From NCBI GenBank assembly GCA_015956445.1, contig WIUZ02000001.1, positions 1,736,001 through 1,800,000 on the forward strand: a DNA stretch of 64,000 nucleotides, written 5' to 3'. Position numbers and translations under genes: made by a program. Source of the stretch: Thelephora terrestris. Taxonomy: Eukaryota; Basidiomycota; Agaricomycetes; Thelephorales; Thelephoraceae. The stretch's first letter is position 1. Each line of letters begins with the position of its first letter. Of the stretch, positions 5,797-64,000 are shown piece after piece. Under the pieces are notes generated by a model that was not told the DNA's origin, did not search any database, and saw only the letters and a program-made list of their open reading frames with translations.

Positions 5797-7034
5797 CTAC
5801 TGCCCCTCAGGTTGGTCCGCCGACCGAGATAACATTGCGGCTTGGCCAGCCGCAGTGGCTGCCAGTCTCGATTTTTTTCTCTCCGCCTCTGGAGAAATTG
5901 TCAGTGAGAACGAGAAAGCACACCACTTGGTCCTCACCAGCTTCCTTCTCTCGCTCGATGTCTTGAACGATCGCTTCAATCTCAGGGAGTTCCAGGCTCT
6001 GGAAACGCGTCAAGAGGCAGGTTAACCGTGAGCCCGAACTTGAAAACCTACCGTGATTTTGTTGTACCCGTCCAACACGCTAATCTCGATGTTTTTGGCG
6101 CCCGTTTGGACGACCTCGAGCAGACTCTTAATCGTCAATTTAATTGACTCGTCCCGCGTCATGTCATCTTTATGGTTTTTCTCCAAAAACTCCCGTACGG
6201 TTTTAGCTGAACGACCAATAGCGTTGGCCTTGATCGTGCTCGATCAGTACGGCCAGTGAGAACAGTAGAACGTCCAAACCTTCCAGGCACTATAGATACC
6301 ACTTGGCTCGGTCATGTACAAACGAGGTCGAGTGTCGTTGGGATCGAACCCGACGATGAGAGTCGCGATACCAAATGGCCGGACACCTCCTGATTGTGTG
6401 TAGCGCTGGAAAACTGAGGACCCCGAACAATTAGCGATAAGGATACCACAATCACCTGTTGGATACCCGCGATATGTCGAGTAATGTATTCAATGGTAAC
6501 GGGGTCTTCTACGGTAAGTCGGTGGCTCTGGCACTCTATTCGGGCCTTGTCAATAAGCACTCGACCGTCAGCCGTAAGGCCTGTGGGGTTTAAATTGTCA
6601 GTGAGCTCGTCGAACGGGGAGTGCACATTAATGCCCACCGGCAAAGGCCAGGCAAACGTGATCATCGAGCATGACGACTTTGCGGACAGTCCGAGGGTCC
6701 TGGAGTTGCAAAACCGATTTCTTCTCGACACCAAGGACTACGACGTCCTTGCCTCGAACCCCAACCTTGCAGCCAGTTAGTGACTAGTTTTCCCGCAAAA
6801 AATGCCATGAAAGTTGGCCCATACAGCACATGTTCCCTTTCGTACAGCTTCATTTGCGTACTCAACCTAGAGGCATGTCCGATTAGATGGCGTTCGAAGG
6901 GCATTCGGCTGGCCATACTTGGAATAGATGACCATCGGGGGAGAAAACGGTGAGAGCTATAAGCAACGTCCAATCAGAACACTAAATCTGACATGATTAA
7001 GTAGATACAGACCTCTGTCGTAGGACCTGGACAT
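5797..7034 (-). CDS. PRE6: 20S proteasome subunit alpha-4 (PSMA7/Pre6)
   Basis: Alpha-ring subunit of the 20S proteasome core. The start is the ATG at 7034 (MSRSYDRA), followed by the alpha-subunit signature [20 protein letters not shown] assembled across three short 5' introns. Then come [36 protein letters not shown] and, near the C-terminus, a lysine-rich tail typical of PSMA7. The last exon is joined by an intron of about 40 nt (GT at 5933), giving a stop near 5797. If that short intron were not removed, the tail would end at 5807 in another frame. The gene starts 151 bp from the ATG of the divergent ZUP1-type gene, which suggests a shared promoter. Family identification is secure; the last 30 residues are less certain. 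Confidence 0.93.
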
Positions 7035-7185: not shown

Positions 7186-9009
7186 ATGAGCTCAGCAAAC
7201 GGAGGGTACGATGAAATTGAATTCCTGTATTCAAAGCCCTCGTATGTCTTCTAGGTCTCCACCTTGGCAATCTTTGAGACCGGTCTTGTAGTGAACCATT
7301 CCCTTGCCAATTCTGCGGAATAGAACTCTCCGGACTAAAGGAGGAGAAGAGACAGGTTCACTATGAAGATCACCTTTCTAATCGGGGCCTGTTAAGTGGC
7401 TCTGGTTCTACCCAAGAACCGCCGAGCGATGGGAGGAACATGTTCTGGCGTCCGTCCTTTGATTCCGTGCCACCTCCAAGTAATTTCACCCCGAATCTCA
7501 TTCCCCTCCTCAAGAAATCTTTGGCAGTCTCTCATCAAAACGGGGAGACTAGGAAGGCTGCCTTGTGTTATACCAAGAGCGTTCACGTTGGCGTGCAGAT
7601 GTGGGATTTAACATGGGGTTCGTCTCCCTCAGGTCTTGCCTCTTGTGAATGTGGGCCAAATTACATATTTTGCCACTAGGTTGCGGGTGCGCGACCTTCA
7701 TAATATTTGCCTGGTGGAATCCGACCATCTTTTAGATATAGAAATTTCCTGATGGCATGCATCGCCTTAATGGAACAGACCACACAGCCTGGATATGTGA
7801 AGCTGTTGAAGCATCCCATACCTCCAGGGGTCGAGAATCTACAGCGATGGATAGAGAACGCTTGGGACCTTGGTGGGTCTCCCGAGCTGGGCGCCATCAG
7901 GCGACTGACGTTTGCGAAGGCTACGACGCTGAAGGAGCGAATCAACTTCAGCGACGGCTACTGGGCACACGCAAATGGATTGGCACTGCAGGTATGTAGG
8001 ACGTATGAACTTCAAACGATGCTCGTCCGACCCTTCGTCAACAGAACTTTACGTCGCATTCATTTCCCGAGGTGTCCCGTATGTCCTTTCCCACGAGAAC
8101 CACTCGCCGTCACTCAGCACTCCCCAGATGTGATCTAGTAGACTTCCACACTGATCGAACAGGTGTGATCTCTTTATCATTCGGACTGCTAGTTCCTGAC
8201 CCCCGGGTAGACAGCGCTGCTGAGAAGGTAGTGAAATGGATCACAACCTACTTTTCTCCCAGTCGTGAAGGTGTTCAGACCGTCAACGATGTGTTAAATG
8301 GGGCGGTGACCGTGACGGAACGTATGCCGGTGATTCTCCAGCACGCGGGCCACTCCAGGACGGTGGTTGGATACGAAATTCAGAGGAATGGGGAGTGTAA
8401 TCTCCTCGTATTCGACCCATCCAAGTGAGTGATTAATCCTCCCTCCTCACCCAGTCCCTCACTGTTACTTATCAGACAACTACGTTTGCCATCACGCACA
8501 GCTGCACCTGGGCTGCAGGGCGGTGTTGAAACAAGATCGCATGCCTCAAGAGATAGAAAGCTCATGGATCGCATAAAAGACACCATGTTCCATCCGATTA
8601 ATGAGATCAAGGCGCGAAAGCGGAAAGAGAGTCCAGCTGTTATCGATCTCACCCAACCGACTTTGAAGAGACCCCGCTCTGCAAGTGGTAACGATGTTGT
8701 TGGTGAAGCTACAGAAACCTCACACTCCAAGTCCGTCGAAGTGGAAAACCAACGGGGCCGACCTCCGCCGATAGAACCCGACGACGAACTACCACCGACG
8801 AGAGGCGATGTGACAAGGCGCATGCTAAACTGGTCGAGACTTTCGATGAAGCGGATAGGGTGAGCACCATCAAACACACAAATGAAATCAGCTGAAAAAA
8901 AATTTGCAGGAAGAAGGACAAGTATCAGATCCTTCACTTCTCCCTCAGGGACCCCCTCACGGATGCAGAAAAGTTGCAAAGAAGGGTCGTTACAAGCCTC
9001 AAACTGTGA
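7186..9009 (+). CDS. ZUP1: ZUP1-type (peptidase C78) K63-polyubiquitin-specific deubiquitinase
   Basis: Cysteine peptidase of family C78; the animal homologue ZUP1/ZUFSP cleaves K63-linked ubiquitin chains. The start is ATG 7186 (MSSANGGYDEIEFLY). An intron leads into a single C2H2 finger (CQFCGIELSG...H...H, about 7.31-7.37 kb). The catalytic domain follows: LIPLLKKSL, then WGCGYRN with the nucleophilic Cys assembled from a 7-nt exon at 7680-7686, GYDAEGANQLQRRLLGTRKW, ELYVAFISRGVPCDLVDFHT, and ILQHAGHSRTVVGYE with the catalytic His (about 8.34 kb). The C-terminal strand KYQILHF precedes the TGA at 9007-9009. The second exon junction of this domain uses a 47-nt intron (7875-7921). There is one zinc finger rather than the four in the human protein, so ubiquitin binding N-terminal to the peptidase is reduced. 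The gene diverges from a proteasome subunit gene. Confidence 0.88.
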
Positions 9010-26433: not shown

Positions 26434-26526
26434 TGACAGTGACGAGATTCGAACTCGCGCGGGAAACCCATCACGGTAATTGGTTAATACCTAAACGTGA
26501 CGCCGTAACCACTTGGCTACACTGCC
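26434..26526 (-). tRNA. tRNA-Leu (anticodon UAG) with a short intron
   Basis: Seven-base-pair acceptor stem GGCAGTG / CACTGTC with discriminator A. D-arm GCC...GGC with AAGTGGTTAC loop, anticodon stem TCACG / CGTGA, anticodon TAG followed by G37, a class-II variable arm with a GGG-TTT-CCC hairpin, and T-arm GCGAG-TTCGAAT-CTCGT. About 13 extra bases (TATTAACCAATTA) after position 37 form the usual nuclear tRNA intron. The long variable arm and UAG anticodon fix it as leucine (CUA). Confidence 0.93.
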
Positions 26527-62537: not shown

Positions 62538-64000
62538 ATGCCGAATCCTCAATACGAAAGACTCTCGACCTCGGATGAAATTCTAGACGACGAACGGCCA
62601 CCAAGGCCGAGGTTGCATTGGAACACTCCTCTTGCCAAGTATCTGCTTCTGGCATTCACATTCGTCGTCGTCGTGTTTTGTTCCTACAAGGCCGGCCAGT
62701 GGTCCGTCGAGGATCCGCAGCGCGCCGAAGATGGTGACATCAACACGGGGATAACCAAACCCAAACCAGACAACACTTCGACTGATACTCCCACCATGCC
62801 GGGAAACGGAAAGTACAGTGTTGGATAGTACGTACTCTTGCCTCTCGTTATGTTGTGGCAGATCTGATGAGACATGTCGGGTGAACAGCTTCGTCAATTG
62901 GTATGGTATGATATAACGCATCTAGCGCATCTCTCATCGCTCCTGTCCGCAGGGGTATCTATGGACGGAAGTATCCACCCTCACTGATTCCAGCGGAGGA
63001 TCTCACGTAAGCGAGAAGAATCCTTTCAGCAAAGCGCGAAGCCCTGATCTGCAACACCAGTCATATTTTATATGCGTTCGCCAACGTCCGAGCCGATTCC
63101 GGAGAAGTTATCCTCTCCGATAAATGGGCTGACGAAGAGATCCATTACCCTGGCGATTCATGGGACGAGAAGGGCCTCTTTGGCAACTTTAAAGCCATCT
63201 ACATGCTCAAGAAGCAGCATCGACATCTCAAGCTTCTCCTTTCCATAGGCGGGTTTCTCAACCAACTACTCCCCGAAATCGATGGACTGACCGAAAACTC
63301 CGTACAGGTGGCTGGACCTATTCCCCGTCATTCCACCCCGTAGTCGTCTCCCCAGCATTCCGCAGCAAGTTCGTAGAATCAGCTGTGAAACTTTTGGAGG
63401 ACTATGGACTTGATGGCTTGGACATCGATTATGAGTATCCTCAAAACGATGAACAGGCACGAGGTTACGCCCATCTCCTAGGGGAACTTCGCCACGCATT
63501 GGATGAACACCAGCGAAAGAAAGGGATCGACTACCGCTTCTTGCTGACAGCACGTTTACTTTCCTGGTCAGGAACGGACATTGTCTCACAGTAACTTGTT
63601 TGCGTAGATTGCTGCGCCCTGTGGTCCACAGCATTCCGAAAAGTTGCACGTGGCTGAAATGGATCGTCACCTCGATTTCTGGAACCTCATGGCCTATGAC
63701 TACGGTAGGACCTCCCTCTCGTCCCCCAAACTGCTGTTCTGATTCGCGTCACTCGTTCAGCCGGTTCCTGGGATCATGCCTCTGGACACCAAGCCAATAT
63801 TCGTGGTGGACTAATCAGCGGCGCCGAGGCCGTGAAATTCTATCATTCCAAAGGCGTCCCTCGTCACAAGCTCATCCTCGGCATCCCACTTTACGGCCGT
63901 TCCTTTATGAACACCGACGGTCCCGGCAAGCCATTCTCCGGTGTCGGTCCAGGTTCGTGGGAAGCGGGCGTGTACGACTACCGTGCTCTACCCCTCCCCG
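62538..64000 (+). CDS. GH18 chitinase with N-terminal membrane anchor (cut by window end)
   Basis: Endochitinase of glycoside hydrolase family 18. ATG 62538 opens about 32 polar residues, then one hydrophobic span ([18 protein letters not shown], residues about 36-53), so the protein is predicted to be a type II membrane protein, not freely secreted. The catalytic barrel follows: [69 protein letters not shown] (D-x-x-D-x-D-x-E with the catalytic Glu), [17 protein letters not shown] and [20 protein letters not shown]. The SIGGW motif is restored only by a GC-AG intron (63249-63307). The frame runs off the window at 64000. Likely role: cell-wall chitin remodelling, inferred from the anchor. Confidence 0.93.

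Follow-up and report, generated by a model that had tools for sequence, protein, structure and literature searches.

How does a gene secure the catalytic cysteine of its product when the codon for that residue lies on an exon of only 7 nucleotides (nt)? The question is raised by a gene at positions 7186-9009, on the forward strand, of the 64,000-nt stretch of Thelephora terrestris DNA analysed here (hereinafter, the window). Judging from sequence comparisons, this gene appears to encode a ZUP1/ZUFSP-type (Peptidase_C78) predicted deubiquitinase. The answer developed below is that the locus is very probably an intact gene of nine exons, in which the 7-nt exon with the nucleophile codon would be routinely included in productive mRNA.

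Gene structure and protein family

Followed from the proposed ATG, the frame runs through nine exons that together comprise 1413 nt and encode 470 residues, with no stops. All eight introns are GT-AG, 47-62 nt long, and in phase. The exons, together with the two introns that flank the microexon, are as follows.

7186..7241, forward strand: exon 1, 56 nt, opening with the proposed ATG, the putative start codon
7292..7617, forward strand: exon 2, 326 nt, with a C24/C27/H42/H46 finger discerned by eye; it also holds the N-terminal border of the C78 domain and ends with W127 and base 1 of the G128 codon
7618..7679, forward strand: intron upstream of the microexon, 62 nt, GTTCGT...ACTAG, GT-AG
7680..7686, forward strand: microexon (exon 3) GTTGCGG, 7 nt, with the codon (TGC) of the predicted catalytic cysteine, C129
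7687..7735, forward strand: intron downstream of the microexon, 49 nt, GTGCGC...TTTTAG, GT-AG
7736..7872, forward strand: exon 4, 137 nt, begins with YRNF
7920..7991, forward strand: exon 5, 72 nt, GYDAEGANQL...RKWIGTA, with the conserved W-I-G
8045..8078, forward strand: exon 6, the second short exon, 34 nt, ELYVAFISRGVP, supported by the alignment with human ZUP1
8128..8424, forward strand: exon 7, 297 nt, CDLVDFH..., with the predicted catalytic histidine, H286, and aspartate, D307
8476..8859, forward strand: exon 8, 384 nt, a C-terminal extension without a Pfam match
8910..9009, forward strand: exon 9, 100 nt, with the TGA at 9007-9009

On the opposite strand, at 5797-7034, there is a predicted gene for a proteasome alpha subunit (Pfam match to Proteasome, 5.3e-56), which is arranged head to head with the ZUP1-type gene (7186, forward strand), the putative start codons being about 150 bp apart. 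A shared promoter could possibly link these two genes, both of which belong to the ubiquitin system.

The predicted protein matches the Pfam family Peptidase_C78 with an E-value of 8.5e-33 and 114.1 bits, against a curated cut-off of 29.1; when the protein is searched by piece, the part before the microexon has no match and the part after it scores 96.3 bits. The four distinct PDB sequences that are matched at E <=0.01 are all ZUP1, ZUFSP, or fission-yeast Mug105, namely, human ZUP1 (6ei1, 6fge; 6.3e-32), the ZUFSP of 7oje (2.6e-25), which we take to be the Tribolium protein, and Mug105 (7oiy; 3.5e-9). The comparison with C78 peptidases that the first-pass annotation had proposed comes out in favor of its reading: W-G-C-G aligns without gaps with human ZUP1, 7oje, and Mug105. 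In the core alignment, which covers D124-N133 of the predicted protein, D10, W13, G14, C15, G16, R18, and N19 are invariant with the three homologues, the rows for 7oje and Mug105 consisting of the N-terminal matched pieces only. Both WGCG and W-I-G are conserved in the four aligned sequences, and QHxGHSRT and DP(S/G) are shared with human ZUP1 and 7oje. The residues C129, H286, and D307 align with the catalytic residues of human ZUP1, presumably C360/H491/D512. This numbering is consistent with Gly-514 in the accessible part of PMC8776766. The second residue after the catalytic aspartate is a serine, as in TcZUP, where the accessible part of the same source places it in the oxyanion hole (PMC8776766).

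Along with human ZUP1, TcZUP, AtZUP, Mug105, and Aureobasidium ApZUP, which make up the ZUP1/ZUFSP family, the protein possesses the C78 domain; compared with that family, it has one finger (by eye) and carries its cysteine codon on a 7-nt exon. Many family members bear a UBZ-type zinc finger at the N terminus; here, a candidate C2H2 finger, C-x2-C-x14-H-x3-H, was discerned by eye, and the N-terminal part has no Pfam match at E <=1. By these sequence criteria, UFSP and ATG4 appear to be more distant from the C78 protein than ZUP1/Mug105. The whole genome (40.6 Mb, 60 contigs) yielded one C78 match, and ATG4 (Peptidase_C54) matches elsewhere, on contig C10. In non-fungal collections, no relative was detected in viral contigs, with either the protein or the four-sequence alignment as the query, or in prokaryote genome contigs, with the protein as the query.

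The microexon and the restored motif

The microexon, GTTGCGG (7680-7686), contributes the final two bases of the G128 codon, the C129 codon in full, and the initial two bases of the G130 codon, and the junctions read TGG G/GT TGC GG/A TAT AGA AAT, that is, W127 G128 C129 G130 Y131 R132 N133. Translation of the joined exons bears out what the first-pass annotation had maintained, namely, that the microexon contains the entire TGC codon of the nucleophile and parts of both glycine codons, and the flanking introns (62 nt and 49 nt, GT...AG) are as it had described them. It had also noted that reading straight through the upstream intron runs into a TAG; there is indeed such a stop, not at 7678-7680, as had been indicated, but at 7677-7679, where it forms the last three bases of the intron.

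How specific this solution is can be judged by enumeration. Within 7560-7790, when donors may be either GT or GC, acceptors are AG, and the minimum intron length is 20 nt, there are 1,870 splice models, 137 with one intron and 1,733 with two. The frame is open into IENAWD in 20 of the one-intron and 272 of the two-intron models, and the motif WGC[GA][YFW]R[NS] is restored by a single model among the 1,870, the one that joins 7617 to 7680-7686 and then to 7736. Thus, the proposed route to W-G-C-G-Y-R-N is the sole one in this set; a different exon restoring WGCGYRN was sought in the same enumeration, and none besides 7680-7686 was found.

As a control for chance, we performed dinucleotide shuffles of the 118-nt stretch. 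With introns required to be >=40 nt, a microexon that keeps the frame and yields WGC[GASW]YRN arose in 11 of 50,000 shuffles and the pattern AGGNTGYGGG(T/C), anywhere, in 23 of 50,000; a frame-keeping microexon of any sequence was present in 983 of 5,000, so that preservation of the frame alone is weak evidence, and it is the motif that counts. Given the frequency of the motif among both the models and the shuffles, a chance origin of the microexon is rejected.

The consequences of failing to include the exon seem to be drastic. Skipping it, by joining 7617 directly to 7736, shifts the frame, and the predicted product ends with ...TWDIEIS-stop, in agreement with the earlier assertion that skipping would destroy the enzyme, because this product stops early and lacks the active site; retention of either flanking intron likewise leads to an early stop. 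Taken at the level of sequence, then, the gene would contain a 7-nt microexon with canonical splice sites on both sides that is needed for both the frame and the motif, a microexon being understood here as an exon of no more than about 30 nt that is spliced at either end.

Splice sites and competing readings

To place the splice sites in the context of this genome, we used a simple gene-finding model, for which 264 kb of the same genome (window included) served as training sequence, with the branch motif seeded as CTNAY. The final training set consisted of 67 genes scoring >20, with 449 introns (median 54 nt, donor consensus approximately AG/GTRAGT, YAG acceptor); the ZUP1 locus, which was called in part, is not in this set. 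Unaided, the model missed the 5' half of the gene and called only 8005-9009, with a score of 9.3. The homology-based gene model has a log-odds of -9.1, negative because the coding signal is weak, and the values for three rivals are -11.2, -14.5, and -15.1.

The donors and acceptors used at the microexon are ordinary for the genome (31.6-92.4 percentile): the donor and acceptor of intron 7618-7679 are at the 31.6 and 38.3 percentiles, and those of intron 7687-7735 are at the 40.5 and 92.4 percentiles. The donors at 7622, 7633, 7655 (GC), and 7680 lie at the 0-0.4 percentile, with 7622 and 7680 at <=0.2, and the donor at 7651, within intron 7618-7679, is at the 39.9 percentile and yields no open model with the motif. 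The donor that is regenerated at the first base of the microexon once the upstream intron has been removed, GTTGCG, scores -1.4, below all 449 training donors, which makes loss of the microexon by recursive splicing unlikely. The combination of ordinary used sites and very weak donors for skipping fits routine inclusion of the microexon in productive mRNA, which is what we infer.

Such inclusion would be readily explained by intron definition, whereby the spliceosome pairs the donor and the acceptor across each short intron. The two short introns would be removed one by one, and the microexon need not host both machineries together. In either order of removal, the donor at the start of the microexon would be too poor to compete, so that the microexon would be kept. 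Skipping or retention would result in a truncated protein that lacks the active site, and the mRNA would probably be degraded. It appears most likely that the tiny exon originated through intron gain in an intron-rich lineage rather than as a regulatory device.

The alternative that fares best, and one that the first-pass annotation had suggested, is that inclusion acts as an on/off switch: variation in the inclusion of the microexon, or in the removal of the 62-nt intron, would turn the deubiquitinase on and off, the off state being a truncated protein or a decayed mRNA. The length of the exon is compatible with this scenario, since 7 is not divisible by three, so that skipping or retention kills the enzyme. 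The branch site of intron 7618-7679 scores poorly (1.1 percentile), a candidate being ATTAC, which lies 16 nt before the intron end, and the total score of this intron is the lowest among the eight of the gene (0.7 percentile of the introns picked by the model, a set that itself leans towards consensus sites). Removal of this intron is possibly inefficient, as far as the model scores go. A precedent in a fungus is offered by the glucose-dependent microexon of Trichoderma Xlr2 which, according to the accessible part of the source, likewise shifts the frame and carries essential cysteines, but differs in that it is 20 nt long, encodes cysteines of the zinc cluster of a transcription factor, and is reported to be regulated by glucose; it was found in the Trichoderma species that the study covered (PMC11121469). 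However, weak introns are a general feature of the ZUP1-type gene (six of the other seven are also below the 25th percentile), the donors and acceptors of the microexon are ordinary, the in-frame skip donor at 7622 and the microexon-internal donor at 7680 are at the very bottom of the scale, and the RNA fold of 7590-7790 shows nothing unusual (z 0.23). The splice-site scores and the fold give no positive sign of a switch, the weak branch site leaves room for one, and we consider regulation of this kind highly improbable at this locus.

Still more improbable, to the point of being rejected, is the possibility that the gene is decaying, with the cysteine exon a relic within a pseudogene. The weak coding score in the splice model and the mostly low-scoring introns of the gene would be in line with decay, but the uninterrupted run of 470 codons, the in-phase arrangement of all eight GT-AG introns, and the presence of all three catalytic residues, Cys, His, and Asp, are not.

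The rival splice models have hardly any probability left. A single GC-AG intron, 7655-7735, would dispense with the microexon altogether and, with the frame open, produce ...WGSSPSGLASCECGYRNF, in which a cysteine precedes GYRN, to give the string C-G-Y-R-N; but this model parts the invariant W-G from the cysteine, its donor, GCCAAA, is at the 0.2 percentile even before the GC penalty, and its Pfam score is 103.4 bits compared to 114.0 bits for the microexon model (fragments cut at the same ends), and it is rejected. Equally negligible, and likewise rejected, is the use of the donor at 7633 (CAG/GTCTTG), which keeps the microexon and the open frame, with a 47-nt intron, but inserts five residues, SSPSG, near W-G, disrupts the invariant W-G-C, relies on a donor at the 0.4 percentile, and scores 106.3 bits against the same 114.0. 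Finally, the in-frame skip via the donor at 7622 (<=0.2 percentile) is rejected, with 97.9 versus 114.0 bits.

Very short exons in fungi

Inclusion of the 7-nt exon being the preferred reading, the question is how unusual such an exon is. The first-pass annotation had considered microexons of this size rare in fungi, which is an overstatement for this kind of genome. Among 384 internal exons in 59 predicted genes with at least three exons, the individual predictions being unverified, 4, 7, and 10 are no longer than 7, 10, and 15 nt, respectively, whereas in intron-body-shuffled controls (five repeats), with about 319 internal exons, the means are 0.6, 1.2, and 1.4. By this model-based count, exons of <=10 nt would account for some 2% of the predicted internal exons in the genome, above the shuffled controls. 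The predictions contain clear errors, such as a zero-length exon in 8005-9009 and, in a predicted kinase gene in L019, the apparent absence, judged against GSK3, of a conserved stretch beside a called 4-nt exon, and individual predicted microexons are, therefore, unverified.

Short predicted exons, and a probable tRNA intron, were also noted in other genes. A Hrq1/MrfA-type helicase gene, which starts at about 4714 on the forward strand of L020 (G000:C1:1716001-1726000), has predicted exons of 9, 9, 14, 7, and 9 nt, the 14-nt one within an ungapped match to YprA. In the window, a GH18 chitinase-like gene (by eye) at 62538-64000, forward strand, has two predicted short exons in succession, 17 and 18 nt long, close to where the domain begins, and a tRNA gene match at 26434-26526, reverse strand, is 93 bp long and so probably intron-bearing.

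Exons this small are already known in basidiomycetes, and published ones of 5-6 bp also run counter to the claim of rarity. In the accessible parts of the respective sources, the shortest exon of Phanerochaete P450 genes is 6 bp, with microexons in nearly a third of these genes (PMC1184071), and among four bglA genes from basidiomycete yeasts, two have shortest exons of 5 and 6 bp, respectively, one of the genes having 10 microexons (PMC9142197). These exons resemble the one described here in lying among short introns, but the same parts do not describe them as bearing a catalytic residue (PMC1184071, PMC9142197). The related proposition, that microexons seldom carry such a residue, fares little better. 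A literature search for microexons with a catalytic cysteine, judged by title and abstract, found nothing related, and no description of a ZUP1-type 7-nt exon was found among the results listed for the literature searched, subscription journals being mostly outside it; on the other hand, tiny exons in critical motifs are known, the zinc-cluster cysteines of Trichoderma Xlr2 being one case (PMC11121469). Another is CYP621A of Fusarium where, as the accessible text has it, an ultra-small exon in a conserved motif was likewise inferred first from frame and motif and, like the 7-nt exon here, is easily missed by annotation (PMC12940212). The differences are that the CYP621A exon is 1 nt long, contributes to a glycine codon in the PKG motif, and belongs to a P450 of an ascomycete, and that it was compared over 20 Fusarium orthologues, with reads confirming it in two species (PMC12940212).

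Within the ZUP1/ZUFSP family itself, Aureobasidium ApZUP provides a lead. When expressed, this protein showed no activity and low solubility, and the authors drew attention to atypical sequence surrounding its catalytic cysteine, according to the accessible part of the source (PMC8776766). We hypothesize that these observations could be accounted for by a tiny exon overlooked at the corresponding position in ApZUP. A broader reading is conceivable, albeit on balance unlikely: the nucleophile of fungal ZUFSP would commonly reside on a tiny exon missed by gene finders, some recorded members of the family would be mis-spliced models, and a weak upstream intron could make inclusion of the cysteine a real control point in some species.

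Automatic annotation would easily miss this 7-nt exon, as the splice model did here, and the outcome would be either a disrupted frame or an enzyme lacking the active-site cysteine. Should the exon prove to be common to other fungal ZUFSP genes, members thought to be inactive would need re-annotation, and ApZUP could be re-tested with the corrected sequence. The 7-nt exon is also a clean test case for how an exon of this size is retained under intron definition.
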